Source: Hahella sp. HN01
GTDB taxonomy: Bacteria > Pseudomonadota > Gammaproteobacteria > Pseudomonadales > Oleiphilaceae
Assembly (NCBI RefSeq): GCF_018986435.1
Contig: NZ_JAHMIN010000038.1
Location: forward strand, 33,613 to 65,982
Direction: 5' to 3'
DNA length: 32,370 nt
Positions 1 to 14,005 of this stretch are shown piece by piece. Position 1 is the first letter of the stretch, and every line of letters begins with the position of its first letter. The translations under genes were made by a program, and so were the position numbers. Under the pieces are notes generated by a model that was given only the letters and a program-made list of their open reading frames with translations, ran no database searches and had not been told where the DNA came from.

Positions 1-562
1 TTATCACCGCCGAGCCGATAATATGCGCCAGCCTCAAAGCCTCCGGCACTCGGCCTTTGGTGGTCAGTCGCGCCAGGGCTTGGCTGGCGGTTTCTGGGTC
101 GCAACCCGCCACCTGATAGTGACAGAAGTCGTTATTAAAAATGGTTCCCGCTGCACGAATCAGGTCGCGTCGCCGTTCATAGTCGTCAAAGTTGCGTAGC
201 GCCTTGTCTATAGCCGGTAGATCTGGGTGCTTGCGCATGACCGCGATGCAGGGACGCTGCACGCTTTCGCATAACCTCGGCAGATCAATGACATTGAATC
301 CGCCGATGGCCACGCCATCCGTCAGCACGACGCCGACCTGATCATAAAACTTGCTATTCATCAGCATAGCGATCAGGCAGTCCGTCGCGTCATCGCCGTC
401 TTTGGTCGCCGTTCCCCAGAGCATGCCTTCAAATTCACCATCTGCGCAGATGATTCCCGCCACGTTGACGGGCAATCCTCTCCGCCGCGCAAAAGGCGCA
501 TCGTCAAATCCGGCGACGCGAATGCGACGATTGCCTTTCACCAATTGATCCAATGATTTCAT
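1..562 (-). CDS. DUF99 (UPF0215) protein, endonuclease V-like fold; 3' end outside window
   Basis: The reverse strand is open from an ATG at 562 to the window edge, giving at least 187 codons; the C-terminus is missing. The protein begins MKSLDQLVKGNRRIRVAGFDDAPF. The RVxGxDDxPF motif near residues 14-24, and a later DGVAIGGFNVIDLPRL stretch followed by PCIAVMRKHPD, are the conserved blocks I associate with the DUF99/UPF0215 family. That family is known mainly from archaea and is considered a relative of the endonuclease V nuclease fold; the paired Asp (D20/D21) sits where EndoV has a metal-binding Asp. A GGAAA ribosome binding site precedes the ATG, and only 21 bases separate it from the ligase gene stop, so the two are probably co-transcribed. 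The biochemical role of DUF99 is not established; a nuclease acting on nucleic acid is inference. Confidence 0.75.
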   Translation of the reverse strand, partial: MKSLDQLVKGNRRIRVAGFDDAPFARRRGLPVNVAGIICADGEFEGMLWGTATKDGDDATDCLIAMLMNSKFYDQVGVVLTDGVAIGGFNVIDLPRLCESVQRPCIAVMRKHPDLPAIDKALRNFDDYERRRDLIRAAGTIFNNDFCHYQVAGCDPETASQALARLTTKGRVPEALRLAHIIGSAVI

Positions 563-583
563 TACGCCGTTTCCAAACTGCGG

Positions 584-2287
584 TTAATCCGTCTCGCCAT
601 TTTCAGTTTTACTCGTCTCCTGAGCGCTCTCTTCATTCTCCCGCCCTTTCTCCATTGTTTCTTCGAAAAACACCGGCAGATAAGGATGCCAATTCCATAG
701 CGCAGGACGTCCGCTGTTTTCTGGAAGATAGGCCCCATCGGTTTTACCATGACGCACGAATTTACCCAAAAACAGCACCTGCTCTCCCCGCTCCAGACGC
801 CACACAGCGCCTTCCGGTGCGTCCACGCTTCCGTGCGCGCCATTCCCCAATAATCGCAAGGTCTCATCAATAGAACAGGGTTCGCCGATATGGAGGACCT
901 TGGCGGGAGTAAACCCAGCCTGCGTCACTCGTCGCCTGAAAACCGCATAGGGCGCACGTCGATTGTCCGCGGTGAAAATATCAAAGGCCGCAAAGGGTTC
1001 ATGCGCCAGCCGGTAACGGGTTCCATGCACGAGGGCCAACCATTCGCCGACCAACCTCTCACCAGGCTCCAACACATCAAGAAAACGAGACTGATGCTCT
1101 TCCACCCATTCCGCCCACAGTCTTCGCGCCGGATTGGGAGACTCATCCGCCAGATCGCCATCTCGTCCCAGCGCCAGAACCCGGTCATCCGTTCGCAATG
1201 CCGCCACGCAGGAGCCATCCAGCTTTTCTTGCACGATAACCACATCGTCAGGGTAGCGTTGTCGAGAGGTCAACATCTCCGCCTTATTGGCGTCGATGTG
1301 TTTGTCCGCAGGGCCAGTGCGCGACCCCGGCAGATGGGGAATGGAGGTATAGGCCTTGTACGGCAACAGCTTGCGTTTCTGCTGCAGGGTGCGCAGCTTT
1401 TGGCGCGCGGCTTCCGAACCGTCTTCCTTCAACAGCTTCACGCGATAGGTGATCACCTCAGACTGGGTCAGCAAGGTTCCATCATTCTGCAACGGCAATA
1501 TGGGGTTGAGATATGCTCGCAGCCAGTCCAACACCAACTCCATCGGTTCAATTTTCTGATGCGGATACTCCGACATCAAGTTGCGCCAGTTTCTGCGGGA
1601 TTTTTTGCTGCGGCCGAAATCGCCGTATAGCAGACGACGAAGGATCGCCAGCGGGTCCATGCGGCTTTCAAAGGCGACCAGAATCGCTTCTCGCAGCCGC
1701 ATGGGGTCCAGTGAATTGTGTTTGCAGAACAGATACAGGTCCCACAACGTCTTCGACATCCAACCGCCGTTCATATGCTCAAACAGCCCATGCAACTTCC
1801 AGGCGGCGGCGATCTCAACAGCGACAGCGGGTACAGCGATCATTGCGCCGTCCTCCAGCACGGAGGGTAGCTCAACCATTCGGGGTGGAATCGTCAACGG
1901 ATCGCCGACAGCGATATCCACCTGCAGCAGCCCTTCGACATCGTAAACCACATAGCCACAGGTGAAGCGAATACCGGGAGAAATACTGTCCTGCCAGATT
2001 GGGTTGACCTGCATAGCATCCGAGTTAAAGCGGCAGGGCGAGGCGTCCGTCTGCGTCATGAGCTGGCGTATCAAAGCAGTGAAATAGTCCGGGGCGTAAT
2101 CCCCCAGATACAATAAATCCAAGTCCTTACAGGCTCGCGGCTGCGGCCCGCTCCAACAGCGCGAGACGTAACTGCCTCGCACGACGAAGCGATCAGCCTG
2201 CGCCAGACTGTATAAACGCGCCAACAACGTTTCAATAGCGATCAGCGTTCGCGTTTCTTCCGTCAAAACCTTCGGCGTCTCCGTCAT
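584..2287 (-). CDS. AbiEii-type nucleotidyltransferase fused to ATP-dependent RNA ligase-like domain
   Basis: A 567-residue protein with two apparent catalytic modules. Residues about 10-210 look like a DNA-polymerase-beta-type nucleotidyltransferase of the AbiEii/DUF1814 kind: VVRGSYVSRCW then KDLDLLY (the DxD metal pair), a third acidic position in LLQVDIAVGD, and a helical AAAWKLHGLFEHMN...WDLYLF segment like the K...DLYDL signature of that family. Residues about 320-545 carry covalent-nucleotidyltransferase ligase motifs: motif I EKLDGS with K355 as predicted AMP-accepting lysine, LVGEWLALVHGTRY (III), FAAFDIF (IIIa), EGAVWRLE (IV) and LFLGKFVR (V). The start chosen at 2287 overlaps the upstream stop as ATGA, implying translational coupling; an in-frame ATG at 2317 is possible but would overlap more. 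Predicted role: extending and sealing RNA ends. The domain calls are fairly secure; substrate and reaction are inference. Confidence 0.75.
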   Translation of the reverse strand: MTETPKVLTEETRTLIAIETLLARLYSLAQADRFVVRGSYVSRCWSGPQPRACKDLDLLYLGDYAPDYFTALIRQLMTQTDASPCRFNSDAMQVNPIWQDSISPGIRFTCGYVVYDVEGLLQVDIAVGDPLTIPPRMVELPSVLEDGAMIAVPAVAVEIAAAWKLHGLFEHMNGGWMSKTLWDLYLFCKHNSLDPMRLREAILVAFESRMDPLAILRRLLYGDFGRSKKSRRNWRNLMSEYPHQKIEPMELVLDWLRAYLNPILPLQNDGTLLTQSEVITYRVKLLKEDGSEAARQKLRTLQQKRKLLPYKAYTSIPHLPGSRTGPADKHIDANKAEMLTSRQRYPDDVVIVQEKLDGSCVAALRTDDRVLALGRDGDLADESPNPARRLWAEWVEEHQSRFLDVLEPGERLVGEWLALVHGTRYRLAHEPFAAFDIFTADNRRAPYAVFRRRVTQAGFTPAKVLHIGEPCSIDETLRLLGNGAHGSVDAPEGAVWRLERGEQVLFLGKFVRHGKTDGAYLPENSGRPALWNWHPYLPVFFEETMEKGRENEESAQETSKTENGETD

Positions 2288-2958
2288 GGGCGCGTTCCTG
2301 TGTCGACCCCATCCCAACCGGCGTCAAGCCCTATGTTGCTGTCATAGATATTGAACTCGCGAATGTCCTTCACAATCTCTACGCCATTGTCCGCTAAAAA
2401 TGTACGCAAAGCCTCCAGCACCTCGCCCGCCTTCCCCAACCCTCCGCGTATGCGTTGAGTGACGAACTGCTCCCGATGCTCCTCATCGCGCCAAAATGCA
2501 TTGGAGGAAAGACGCCCGCGATACGCGCGCACCTTTGCACGCAAGACGGTTAAGTCATAATCCGCCGGCAACCTGAGCTTCAGATGATGTTCGAAGTAAC
2601 AATATTCGGGAAATTGCGTCGCCGCTTCGTCATGCTGGGGGATGTTGGCGTTGCTTATCGCCGCCTCGATTTTCAAGCGTTCGACGGAAAATCCCTCACT
2701 CGCCATCCCGTCGCACAGCTCCTGAATTTGCTCCCAAACCTTCTCCGGCGCGCCGCTCAAACGCTTGCACAACATGGGTTGCGTACAATGCTCACCAGAG
2801 GACAACTGAATAACGATAGCTTTCGCCTCTTTCACCGCGCAAAAGTCGACAAAGCGCTGCAGCGCGACTTGATCGCGAGTGACGACGGTAATGTGGATTT
2901 CATACTTTCCGGGAAACGCTTTGAGCGCATCCAACGGCGTGTGGAACCGATACTTCAT
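2284..2958 (-). CDS. 2H phosphoesterase-like protein of unknown function, RNA-repair operon
   Basis: A 224-residue soluble protein with no signal peptide or membrane segment. I do not recognise a named family with certainty. It contains a strand-like YEIHITV (H22-x-T24) and a later YFEHHLKLRL (H125-x-K127), spaced like the two HxT/S motifs of 2H phosphoesterases (LigT/ThpR, 2',3'-cyclic phosphodiesterases). A third His-x-Thr (H57-C-T59) lies in SSGEHCTQPML. The second motif having Lys rather than Thr/Ser is atypical. Its stop overlaps the start of the nucleotidyltransferase-ligase gene (ATGA), so the two products are likely made together. Healing of 2',3'-cyclic phosphate RNA ends would fit next to a ligase, but this is inference. 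The ribosome binding site is weak. Confidence 0.6.
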   Translation of the reverse strand: MKYRFHTPLDALKAFPGKYEIHITVVTRDQVALQRFVDFCAVKEAKAIVIQLSSGEHCTQPMLCKRLSGAPEKVWEQIQELCDGMASEGFSVERLKIEAAISNANIPQHDEAATQFPEYCYFEHHLKLRLPADYDLTVLRAKVRAYRGRLSSNAFWRDEEHREQFVTQRIRGGLGKAGEVLEALRTFLADNGVEIVKDIREFNIYDSNIGLDAGWDGVDTGTRP

Positions 2959-3069
2959 GAGATAAAAACTGCCTACAGAAAACCCGATGGTACAGATAGC
3001 GGACGGATTGATTTCAAATGCGCATCCATCGCGCGATGATTAATTGATGAGATATGTTTGGAGCCGGCC

Positions 3070-3555
3070 TCAAAACAGGAGGTCAAAGGATACCACAGAT
3101 ATCCCCTCCTCCGTGCGGCGACTCACCACCTTCTGAAACCCGAACCGTTCATACAGGGCGATGGCGGGCGCATTTACTGCGGCGGTGGACACTCGCGCTC
3201 CTTTGGGACGTCCAAACTGATCGCGATGAGTAAAAACATGCTCCAGCAAACCGCTGGCGTATCCCCGCCGAAACATATCGGGGGCGACCACCAGACTGTC
3301 GATACTCAGCCACTCGCCCTGGCGGTCCAACTCCATCGCCGCAACCAGTCTGGCCTCCCGTCGATATCCCAGGAACTGGGTGGAACTCGCCATGAAGTCA
3401 GCGGGGGTTCTAAACAATGGCGAAAACAGCTCTACGCCAATCAAGTCCGCTTCCACCCGGTAAGCGGATTGAAACAGATCAAACAACTCCTGGGCGATAC
3501 CCGCATCTGTATGCTTCAGACATAAAAATTTCATCTTTTCAGCTTCGCCGTTCAT
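3070..3555 (-). CDS. GNAT family N-acetyltransferase
   Basis: A 161-residue cytoplasmic protein with a GNAT core. The acetyl-CoA-binding motif A is VVAPDMFRRGYASGLLEHV (R/Q-x-x-G-x-A within it, about residues 90-110), followed by a motif-B-like AVNAPAIALYERFGFQKV. The family transfers an acetyl group from acetyl-CoA to amines or protein N-termini; the substrate here cannot be read from sequence. The start at 3555 is used, but an ATG seven codons in (MKFLCL, 3534) is equally possible since neither has a strong ribosome binding site. It lies 111 bases upstream of, and on the same strand as, the RNA-repair-like genes. It may share their transcript, but no overlap ties it to them. Confidence 0.85.
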   Translation of the reverse strand: MNGEAEKMKFLCLKHTDAGIAQELFDLFQSAYRVEADLIGVELFSPLFRTPADFMASSTQFLGYRREARLVAAMELDRQGEWLSIDSLVVAPDMFRRGYASGLLEHVFTHRDQFGRPKGARVSTAAVNAPAIALYERFGFQKVVSRRTEEGISVVSFDLLF

Positions 3556-3925
3556 ATTTCTTTATCCGATTTTTTGCCTGATTTTTTATCTGACATTACG
3601 CCGCTTAACGCAATAATACGCCCCGTACTTTTTGTTCAGGTATTTCAACCGGATTGCCGGATTTTTTTATAAATCCTAGTCTTTATTCCAGTGCAAAAAA
3701 AGACGCATCATCCTAACGATAAAATGAACGGCGGAGAGTTTGAAACCATTCCCAACCCGCGTCCCACACTTGCAACTGATCATTTTTTAGTCTTCATTTA
3801 TAACTGTCTGAGAGTTGTTCTCATTTGAGAAACAGACCGCTCGACTGCGCTTCCTACCGCGCAGCATTTAAACCGGCCAGCCATTCCGAGCCGCGTTCAA
3901 CTAATTGACTTTAAAGGGAATTTAT
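3556..3925. other. 370-base intergenic region between divergent GNAT and M23 peptidase genes
   Basis: No convincing coding frame. The region is AT-rich in its first half and must hold divergent promoters for the acetyltransferase (minus) and the peptidase (plus). A 6-bp dyad, TTCTCA-TT-TGAGAA at 3818-3831, could be a small operator. A short CCGG-attg-CCGG followed by seven T at about 3653-3671 is too weak to call a terminator. I could not place a confident -35/-10 pair. The plus-strand gene has a clear AAAGGGA ribosome binding site at 3913-3919. Confidence 0.4.
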
Positions 3926-5761
3926 ATGAAAAAGAGTATCGGAACTATCTTCGTCTGCGCGCTTTCAGCACTCCCCCTCCTGGCGCATTCCGACGATAGC
4001 AGAGATATCATTTCGGACGAGCAGTTTATCTATTCTTATCAAGAGATGCTGACCTTCGATGTCGCCGCCTACCTGAAACGGAATGCTCCTCATTTACTGG
4101 ATCAGACCGAAGTCATTACGCACTGGGCCGGTTATAGCACCGTGAGCCCTAAAGTGTTGTTAACCCTGATAGAAATGCAGACTGGCCTGGTAAGCGGCGC
4201 ACGCACTGCATCCCTGCAACGCCCCCTCGGAGATTTGTCCGAACGGGATGGCTTCAGCGCTCAAGTTGAAGATATCGCCATGCGTCTGGCCAAAGCTTAT
4301 TACAGCACGGTAAATCAAGAGCAGAAAAGCCTGTCTGTCAGCGGCGAAGACATCGCCACACGCGCGCTCTCCCGCGCCTTGATGAACAACGCCGCAGGCG
4401 ACGCGGAGGAGTTTGCAACGGTCTACCAGCGCCTGTTCCCGCAAGAGCAGGAAAGCGCGGAACCTCCCGGCGTCAGCCGCTTCTCCGCTTACTCCAAAAA
4501 GCTGGTCCCTCCGGAAAACATGCTGCAGCTCCCCTTCCCGATTGATCAAAGCTGGTGGTTCGGCGGCGCGCATACCAACACCGGCAGCGGCAACTATCCG
4601 TTGTCTTCCCTGGACATGAACAATGGCGGTGGCTGGGGATCGGATACATCCACTAAATGGGCGGTGGCGTCCGCAGCGGGCACAGCAGTGCGACATTCAT
4701 CCTGCTTCGTGGAAGTGCTGCACGACGGCGGCTGGTCAACCACTTACTACCACTTGGACAATGTGCAGTTCCAGGACCGCACCGCCGTATCGCAAAACCA
4801 GAAACTGGCGAACTACGCCAACAACCGTTCTCAGGCGCTATGCAACGGCGGCAGCTCCACCGGTCCCCATCAGCACTTCAGCCTGAAATATGACGGCGGC
4901 TTCTATCACCTGGACGGCGTTTACCTGTCCGGCTACAAGGTGAAAACCGGCCGCTATAGCTATGACGGCGACTGCAATTATTTCTGGATGAGTAAAAACG
5001 GTTCGAAATACTGCACCAGCAATAAACTCTACAACCCTGGCACATCCGGTCCCACCGATCCTGATACGCCGGATAAGGAACTGGAAAACGGTCAGGTTCT
5101 CAGTAATCTGAGCGCGGACAAAGAGGATAAAGACTACTACGTTCTGAAAGTCGACCCTGGCGCGAGCGATCTGGTGTTCCGCATCTCTGGCGGCAGCGGC
5201 GATATGGATATGTTCGTCAAGTTTGGCGAGCGTCCCACCCTCGCTTCCTATGACTGTCGACCTTACAAAACCACCCAGGAAGAAATCTGCACCTTCAACT
5301 CGCCCCAGGCGGGCAATTACTATGTCATGCTGCATGCGTTCTCCAGCTATTCCGGCATCACTTTCGAAGCTGGCTATAAAGCTAACTCCGACAGCAGCCA
5401 GGAACTGATGAATGGCGAGGCGGTGACGAAGCTTTCCGGCAGCAAGGATGAGATGGACTATTTCTACGTCGACATCCCGGAAAGCGCCCGCAACTTGCGT
5501 ATTGAAATGTCTGGCGGTCAGGGCGATGCGGACATGCATGTTCGCTTCAGAACGCCCCCGACGTTAAACGAATATGACTGCCGGCCATTCAAAACCACGC
5601 AGGTAGAAACCTGTTCCTACAATACGCCGCAGACCGGGGTTTATCATGTGATGTTGCACGCCTTCGATCCTTATTCGGACGTACAGCTGGTGGCCCGTTA
5701 CGATGATCGGATTCAAGGCAAAGAAGTGGCTGTCGTGCTGACGCAGGCCAGGCAGGAATAA
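3926..5761 (+). CDS. Secreted LasA-like M23 metallopeptidase with two C-terminal PPC domains
   Basis: A 611-residue precursor. The start at 3926 is preferred over an in-frame ATG at 3905 because it gives a classical signal peptide (MKKSIGTIFVCALSALPLLAHS) and has an AAAGGGA ribosome binding site. Residues about 25-200 form an N-terminal propeptide-like region. Residues about 205-375 align in memory with LasA/beta-lytic endopeptidase of family M23A: H216 and D230 (HTNTGSGNYPLSSLDM) and H317 are predicted zinc ligands, and H276 (YYHL) and H315 (GPHQHF) catalytic. Two tandem PPC (bacterial pre-peptidase C-terminal) domains follow, at about 388-485 and 495-600, each with DxDMxV-R/K, CRPxKTTQ and HAF blocks. 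LasA-type enzymes cut glycine-rich cross-bridges or elastin; a secreted lytic role is likely. PPC domains are usually trimmed or mediate secretion and binding. Confidence 0.9.
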   Translation: MKKSIGTIFVCALSALPLLAHSDDSRDIISDEQFIYSYQEMLTFDVAAYLKRNAPHLLDQTEVITHWAGYSTVSPKVLLTLIEMQTGLVSGARTASLQRPLGDLSERDGFSAQVEDIAMRLAKAYYSTVNQEQKSLSVSGEDIATRALSRALMNNAAGDAEEFATVYQRLFPQEQESAEPPGVSRFSAYSKKLVPPENMLQLPFPIDQSWWFGGAHTNTGSGNYPLSSLDMNNGGGWGSDTSTKWAVASAAGTAVRHSSCFVEVLHDGGWSTTYYHLDNVQFQDRTAVSQNQKLANYANNRSQALCNGGSSTGPHQHFSLKYDGGFYHLDGVYLSGYKVKTGRYSYDGDCNYFWMSKNGSKYCTSNKLYNPGTSGPTDPDTPDKELENGQVLSNLSADKEDKDYYVLKVDPGASDLVFRISGGSGDMDMFVKFGERPTLASYDCRPYKTTQEEICTFNSPQAGNYYVMLHAFSSYSGITFEAGYKANSDSSQELMNGEAVTKLSGSKDEMDYFYVDIPESARNLRIEMSGGQGDADMHVRFRTPPTLNEYDCRPFKTTQVETCSYNTPQTGVYHVMLHAFDPYSDVQLVARYDDRIQGKEVAVVLTQARQE

Positions 5762-12418: not shown

Positions 12419-14005
12419 TCAAGCGCGGATTTCCCGGCAACGGGCAGGTAAACGCAGTGTAAAACAGCTGCCTTTGTGCAGCTGTGACTTGACGCTGACC
12501 CCGCCGCCCATCTGCTCAATCAACGCCCGCACAATACTGAGCCCCAGTCCCGTACCCGCCACCGCCTGACGACCGGAAGGCGGCGCCTGGAAAAATTTAT
12601 CGAAGATGCGCGCCTGATCTATTTCACTGATTCCCACGCCTTCATCCACGACGTCAATAAACACCTCGCCGCCGCCGGACAATCGACTGCGAATCGTCAC
12701 CCTTCCCTGCGCGGGAGAGAATTTGACCGCATTGGAAATCAGGTTGCTCATCACCTGCTGAAAGCGGCGTTTATCCACTCCAACAATAACGTCACCGGCG
12801 CCATGCTCAAGCTGCATCGTCACATTACGAGCCTTGGCGTAGGGTCCATTCATGCTCAGCGCCTGCTCCAGCTCGGCCAGTAGTTCGGTTTCCTCCAACG
12901 CTATGTCCACATGCCCCGCTTCCAGCTTCTCGATATCGAGTATATCGTTCACCAGCGCCAGCAAACGTTCGCTGTTGTTTGAGGCAATCGACAGCAACTT
13001 CGCTGACTGTTCGTTCAGCTCCGGACCCAAGGTCGCCGAAAGCAGTCCCAAGGCGCCTTTTATGGAGGTCAACGGAGTGCGCAATTCGTGGCTGACCACC
13101 GACACGAACTCTTTCTTCATGGCCTCCGCGCGTTTGCGGTCGGAAATATCCGCCACACTGCCAACCCACCTCATTGCGTCGCCCATTTCCATCTGGCGGA
13201 AGCTGAGCTGAGCAGGAAATGTCTCACCGCTGCTGCGGATCAATTCCACCTCCAGGCGATGAATGCCGTCCCGGACGTCGGCGTCGCCTTCTTGTCCACG
13301 CTGCAATAACTCCAGTAGAGGCGCATCGTTTTTCAGCCATTGAGAAAAATGAGCGCCATTCAGCTGCTCGCCAGAGACCCACAACATCTCCTTCATCGCC
13401 TGATTGGCGGCTTCAATCACGCCATCGGCATTTACCGTCACAATCCCTTCGACAACCGCTTGCAGAATGGAAGTGAGATAGGCTTCCTGATGGGCGTTCA
13501 TGTGCGAAAGATCCGCCAGGCGCAGCATATGCAGCTCTCTTTCCACCCAACCAGCCAAATCCTGCAGGCGTTGCAGTTGTTCCTGGTTAAAACGACGGGG
13601 GCGAACGTCAATCAGACAGAGCGTGCCAATACGGTGGGTCTCATCCAGACTCAGCGGAGCGCCAGCGTAAAAACGAATGTGAGGAGGACCAGTGACCAGG
13701 GGGTTATCGGAAAATCGGGGGTCTTTCAGGGCATTGGGCACATAGAGCACTTCCCGCTGCAAAATAGCGTGCCCGCAAAATGAGATATTGCGACCGGTTT
13801 CCGACGCGTTGAGCCCCACCTTCGATTTGAACCACTGGCGTTCAGCGTCGACCAGTGACACCAGCGCAATGGGCACATTAAACAGCGAGGCCGCCAGCTT
13901 GGTGATGCGGTCAAAACGCTGTTCCGGCTCTGTGTCCAGAATGCACAGCGAGTGCAGACAGACAAGCCGCTGCGATTCATTCTCCGGGATGATGGGTTCC
14001 TGCAT
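12419..14005 (-). CDS. Cytoplasmic GAF-PAS hybrid sensor histidine kinase (orphan)
   Basis: A 528-residue kinase with no membrane segments. Residues about 10-165 form a GAF domain (LDTEPEQRFDRIT, SFCGHAILQ, IRFYAGAPL, IGTLCLIDVRPR). Residues about 175-295 form a PAS domain (ILQAVVEGIVTVNADGVIEAANQAM, then VGSVADISDRKRAE). HisKA carries H306 (SHELRTPLTSIKGALGLL), followed by HATPase N and G boxes (NLISNAVKFSP, DEGVGI, GTGLGLSIVRALIEQMGG). No receiver gene is adjacent, so it is an orphan. The ATG at 14005 is the first in frame, since a TAA lies two codons before it, and it has no clear Shine-Dalgarno. TATAAT sits at 14008-14013, almost touching the ATG. It converges with the preceding kinase gene, with 9 bases between stops. 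Confidence 0.9.
   Translation of the reverse strand: MQEPIIPENESQRLVCLHSLCILDTEPEQRFDRITKLAASLFNVPIALVSLVDAERQWFKSKVGLNASETGRNISFCGHAILQREVLYVPNALKDPRFSDNPLVTGPPHIRFYAGAPLSLDETHRIGTLCLIDVRPRRFNQEQLQRLQDLAGWVERELHMLRLADLSHMNAHQEAYLTSILQAVVEGIVTVNADGVIEAANQAMKEMLWVSGEQLNGAHFSQWLKNDAPLLELLQRGQEGDADVRDGIHRLEVELIRSSGETFPAQLSFRQMEMGDAMRWVGSVADISDRKRAEAMKKEFVSVVSHELRTPLTSIKGALGLLSATLGPELNEQSAKLLSIASNNSERLLALVNDILDIEKLEAGHVDIALEETELLAELEQALSMNGPYAKARNVTMQLEHGAGDVIVGVDKRRFQQVMSNLISNAVKFSPAQGRVTIRSRLSGGGEVFIDVVDEGVGISEIDQARIFDKFFQAPPSGRQAVAGTGLGLSIVRALIEQMGGGVSVKSQLHKGSCFTLRLPARCREIRA

Follow-up and report, generated by a model that had tools for sequence, protein, structure and literature searches.

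AbiEii-type nucleotidyltransferases (NTases) are known as toxins, and AbiEi is a winged-helix protein. For the RNA-ligase-associated NTases (RlaP), restoration of nucleotides ahead of ligation has been proposed (PMC7824862). We describe a locus that touches on both groups, at one end of a 32,370-nucleotide stretch (the window, in whose positions coordinates are given unless stated otherwise) of the 7.1 Mb genome of Hahella sp. HN01 (assembly GCF_018986435.1, contig NZ_JAHMIN010000038.1, positions 33,613 to 65,982). Two minus-strand genes, A (2284-2958, 224 aa) and B (584-2287, 567 aa from the ATG at 2287), overlap as ATGA (2284-2287), the stop of A running into the start of B. B fuses an AbiEii-family NTase to an ATP-dependent RNA ligase, which suggests that this chemistry can also serve repair, and the fusion offers a concrete handle on the function of both enzymes.

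We read A and B, with a probability of roughly 0.4, as a module that cleans, rebuilds and seals RNA ends. A would act on the broken end, or on its nucleotide chemistry, so as to make the end usable; the NTase half of B would restore or add nucleotides at the 3' end, and the ligase half would join the 3'-OH to the 5'-phosphate using ATP. We infer this mechanism, including the enzymatic nature of A and the order of the steps, from domain content, fusion and recurrence, and tRNA would be the likeliest substrate. The analysis shows the genes and their domains, intact motifs, the pairing and fusions of A with NTases, the threefold recurrence with a ligase and a predicted ligase fold that is closest to nick-sealing RNA ligases.

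Gene B, an NTase joined to an RNA ligase

Residues 21-243 of B (1559-2227, minus strand) match the Pfam family AbiEii (PF08843; 1.5e-17, 64.8 bits for a cut-off of 22.5) and bear the GS...DxD pattern; the PADLOC AbiEii profile matches B at 1.8e-52. The ligase domain spans residues 305-545 (653-1375, minus strand), of which 349-501 match Pfam RNA_ligase (PF09414; 4.1e-16), and carries motif I (K355-x-D-G), motif IV (EG) and motif V (K509-x-V). The KxDG, EG and KxV motifs are invariant in all 52 sequences of an alignment that used 50 of 80 viral loci, L183, L186 and L218 having been dropped for stop codons and others by choice; close ligase sequences are numerous in viral contigs. The domain was modelled with a pLDDT of 95.4, and its closest solved folds are RNA ligases, those of Naegleria and T4 Rnl2. 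The initial annotation, made from the sequence alone, was right about the fusion, as Pfam matches both domains and both keep their motifs, and the closest solved folds agree with its suggestion of RNA ligation. A Pfam scan of B up to an E value of 1 gave, besides AbiEii and RNA_ligase, only an aminoglycoside transferase below threshold; the Pfam copy used presumably includes the RlaP model.

The same genome holds a second RNA-ligase-like gene (L032, G000:C102:175394-175813), which shares 29% identity with the ligase half of B, and matches similar to it were seen in three related genomes.

Gene A and its association with NTases and ligases

No Pfam family, AbiEi included, matched A. The PADLOC profile named 'AbiEi' (PDLC02277) does so at 3.5e-51, a label that seemingly reflects the gene pairing, and all six annotated records inspected call the protein 'hypothetical'. 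Among 69 bacterial sequences (L099, L112, L114 and L116, partial or frame-broken, were omitted), H22, T24, M62, R94, K96, E98, F122, E123, H125, S151, N153, R169, D206, D212 and W215 are invariant. The best match to a solved structure by sequence has an E value of 0.081, and the best 50 matches listed by Foldseek for the model have low TM scores (0.27-0.35, by query length). A is a strictly conserved protein without a Pfam match, for which these searches found no solved relative.

The model of A (pLDDT 93.5, pTM 0.88) consists of two consecutive beta-alpha-beta-beta-alpha-beta halves, a predicted tandem ferredoxin-like fold, in which the first strand of each half bears E-x-H (residues 20-22, where 4 of the 69 sequences have Asp at 20, and 123-125). 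This predicted two-histidine arrangement has some likeness to 2H enzymes, and A had initially been taken for a 2H phosphoesterase. 2H enzymes are described as having two HxT/S motifs each (PMC5283653). In A the first is present (H22-x-T24, 69 of 69), but the second position reads H125-x-K127 in 67 sequences, with T in one and R in one. Moreover, hhalign against 10 PF13563 (2H) sequences gave a probability of 2.5% over 13 columns, where a control comparison of A with phage A gave 99.9%; such a comparison could miss a very remote relationship. On these two grounds we do not accept A as a member of the 2H group. The 50 matches listed for A by Foldseek, or by VIA, include no 2H structure, which excludes nothing. 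A probably works as an enzyme that processes RNA ends or nucleotides.

An alignment of four A proteins, scanned against one genome per species, retrieved 72 loci, of which, by record title, 66 are from Actinomycetota, three from Planctomycetota and one each from Lysobacteraceae, Deinococcales and Cytophagales. An AbiEii-type NTase lies downstream of A on the same strand in 62. By tblastn none was found in the other ten, among which the contig of L063 stops just after A and the A of L116 is partial; for the rest, true absence and an NTase too distant are both compatible. In 13 of the 72 loci a single open frame encodes both A and NTase (L054, L061, L064, L065, L066, L072, L075, L081, L082, L083, L087, L089 and L093). 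The GS...DxD pattern is present in 68 of 70 NTase frames, the two others being L087 (CGS...DID) and a second gene in L054 (KGA...DID). The pairing of A with an AbiEii-type NTase is conserved. As a control, 26 other AbiEii loci of the class were searched (flanks up to 1.5 kb), and no A was found. A is also rare in the phylum: of 398 genomes, two matched its PADLOC profile, and the window's is one of these. All-against-all clustering of neighbours (frames of at least 90 aa, 72 loci) gave no third partner: two clusters besides A and NTase are mostly opposite-strand frames over or near the A-NTase frames (70 and 44 loci), and the remaining ones, in at most 25 of 72 loci, we read as Streptomyces synteny.

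Two observations concern individual loci. Tandem A-NTase open frames occur in L066 (6526-9551) and L082 (6478-9554), from Actinoplanes rectilineatus and Amycolatopsis xylanica. On the Cytophagales contig (L070), a solitary A (2973-3629) adjoins a gene that reads as recO-like, and upstream of A the translations reveal a run of short repeats resembling a CRISPR array.

Ligase, A and NTase come together in three lineages and in three arrangements. NTase and ligase are fused in the window's genus; on a plasmid of Deinococcus sp. QL22 the ligase gene is divergent from A, whose gene overlaps that of the NTase by four bases; and in a Deinococcales genome (L108), the only one of the 72 scanned loci with a ligase match, A is followed on the same strand by the ligase and then the NTase. 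The NTases of these lineages group in a single branch, separate from the remaining 65 rows of the tree (100/98). Likewise, the three ligase-linked A proteins form one branch together with one Cytophagales A that has no detected NTase or ligase (99/97); the tree tool flagged both trees for long branches. Either a single origin of the three-part set with later rearrangement, or recruitment in that clade, would fit this pattern, and in both cases the three genes were kept together through changes of order.

A also extends to viruses. Predicted structures matching it come from phages, for example LAh_8 (TM 0.78), and from the giant viruses Fadolivirus, Bodo saltans virus, Yasminevirus and Klosneuvirus (TM 0.73-0.81); by sequence, 20 of 50,697 phage records, duplicates included, match at E values up to 0.01. 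Of 55 A frames on viral contigs, 50 are extended at the N-terminus by at least 90 residues, 49 with a loose MazG-type ExxE pattern. Pfam MazG-like was above its cut-off in one of three scanned extensions (5.2e-7), below it in another and absent from the last, and two of three bacterial A proteins are matched by a PHROG named 'MazG-like pyrophosphatase', the match lying in the C-terminal portion of the PHROG profile. The MazG-type fusions of viral A hint at nucleotide chemistry, which suits the RNA-repair reading as well as its main rival, a toxin-antitoxin pair. An RNA ligase lies near A (5 kb flanks) in three of six phage records opened: in phiM12 it is annotated as such, in Arash the annotated RNA ligase reads as RtcB-like, and in XacN1 an annotated 2'-5' RNA ligase nevertheless has a KMDGE motif by reading. 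However, the 55 IMG/VR A loci (flanks up to 6 kb) contained no match to these ligases, and we therefore do not count the phage context as support. Scans with B alone (genomes and viral contigs) and with alignment A3 (viral contigs) confirmed no relative.

Gene C and the genus neighbourhood

A third minus-strand gene, C (2-562), follows B after 21 bases (563-583); the linkage of the three genes, with its coordinates, overlap and gap, was borne out as first described. C is open at the window edge, its stop lying eight codons beyond, and the contig has one N just outside the window. C matches Pfam Endo_dU (DUF99, PF01949; 4.5e-55, 186.3 bits for a cut-off of 32.7), in agreement with its initial assignment, and falls below both NCBIfam equivalog cut-offs. 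A His near its C-terminus, seen by eye, is a candidate for the basic residue of the published motif VII. Extension to the left of base 1 completed C and revealed, downstream of it on the same strand, genes for DUF4166 and DUF6939 proteins (12427-12978 and 11838-12392 of L002). Upstream of A, also on the minus strand, is a GNAT acetyltransferase gene (3073-3555), syntenic in four genomes and not part of the module. Further on, the plus strand encodes at 3905-5761 a 618-aa probable secreted protein that looks, by eye in the list of open reading frames, like an M23-type peptidase.

Four of seven genomes of the genus, among them the window's, have A, B and C, and the other three lack all of them; identity to the window's copies is 75-91% for A, 82-87% for B and 95-97% for C. 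The three relatives keep the order GNAT, A, B, C, DUF4166, with DUF6939 full-length in two and partial in one. This synteny does not single out C, since GNAT and DUF4166 are equally syntenic. A comparison with empty sites failed, the best DUF4166 and GNAT matches in the three genomes lacking A, B and C being at most 49% identical or missing.

Of the parts named in the initial annotation, A, NTase and ligase recur jointly in three lineages, but C was found neither in the 72 bacterial loci with A, inspected with flanks of up to 8 kb, nor in the QL22 plasmid locus, the opened phage loci and 135 viral A or ligase loci. Co-occurrence of all three genes was found in this genus only, and the reading of C as part of the module was set aside. 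Of 369 genomes of the class, 20, counting the window's, have DUF99 above its cut-off, and A was found in none of these 20 loci (flanks up to 1.5 kb), a weak control because the window's own A lies outside its DUF99 locus. Nor is the suggested opening nuclease for RNA or inosine supported: members of the family were reported to cut DNA on the 3' side of deoxyuridine, whereas no cutting of RNA or of deoxyinosine DNA was seen (PMC11585767). C is probably a linked DNA-repair neighbour and not a conserved module part, although it may have a role within the genus.

Alternative readings and known systems

The main rival is a toxin-antitoxin or abortive-infection system, since those relatives of AbiEii that have been characterised extend tRNA ends with nucleotides (PMC10435456). 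Here the NTase would block translation by 3' additions to tRNA, A would neutralise it, perhaps by removing the addition enzymatically, and the ligase would be a later extra. The family of the NTase, the AbiEi/AbiEii labels given by PADLOC, the overlapping two-gene layout and the extension of tRNA acceptor stems by MenT relatives, described in the same source, all speak for it. However, A has a tandem ferredoxin-like model in place of a Pfam AbiEi match, its conserved polar residues look catalytic, it shares a frame with the NTase in 13 of 72 loci and is missing from all 26 other AbiEii loci of the class (within 1.5 kb), and the link to the ligase is left unexplained. We consider this reading rather unlikely. 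The clean-rebuild-seal module could also be given a wider scope, in which A founds an unrecognised family, spread over bacteria, tailed phages and giant viruses of the Klosneuvirus type, that acts on RNA ends or nucleotides; the A-NTase pair would then be an RNA-repair unit, the window would hold a three-enzyme pathway, and its AbiEii NTase would repair tRNA instead of poisoning it. We offer this wider proposal tentatively and hold it to be doubtful.

A might instead act on free or cyclic nucleotides, the module both making and removing a nucleotide signal, or else altering nucleotide pools. The viral extensions (at least 90 residues in 50 of 55, with ExxE in 49), the MazG-like match above cut-off in one of three and the PHROG match in two of three bacterial A proteins are in its favour, but the bacterial partner of A belongs to a family known from tRNA modification and the ligase fusion is again unexplained, so that this role appears unlikely. 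Finally, a DNA-repair operon, in which DNA nicked at uracil by Endo_dU would be filled in by the NTase and sealed by the ligase, would suit the reported cutting of deoxyuridine in DNA by the family of C (PMC11585767) and the joint presence or absence of A, B and C in the seven genus genomes (four and three). It is very improbable: C was found in no other A locus, DUF99 occurs in 20 of 369 class genomes versus 2 of 398 phylum genomes for the A profile (the window's being in both counts), fold and Pfam favour an RNA ligase, and the synteny of C in the window's genome and its three relatives is matched by that of GNAT and DUF4166.

The RNA-end repair module that we favour resembles several known systems in part. 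Like AbiE and MenAT toxin-antitoxin systems, it has an AbiEii-family NTase in a two-gene arrangement, but A is unlike the AbiEi winged-helix antitoxin and an RNA ligase is fused or adjacent. C is a member of the endonuclease dU (DUF99) family, here found with A and B in a single genus. With Pnkp1-Rnl-Hen1 and RtcAB it shares the idea of end healing and sealing by several enzymes, although none of the Pfam matches of the three genes is to a kinase-phosphatase, Hen1 or RtcB component. The ligase of B is closest in fold to the Naegleria and T4 Rnl2 RNA ligases and has motifs I, IV and V, but is minimal (about 230 residues) and forms the C-terminal half of an NTase fusion. RlaP, an NTase beside an RNA ligase, predicted to restore lost nucleotides (PMC7824862), offers a similar pairing; in contrast, the NTase described here has AbiEii as its sole Pfam NTase match at cut-off, is fused to its ligase, and is accompanied by the conserved gene A.
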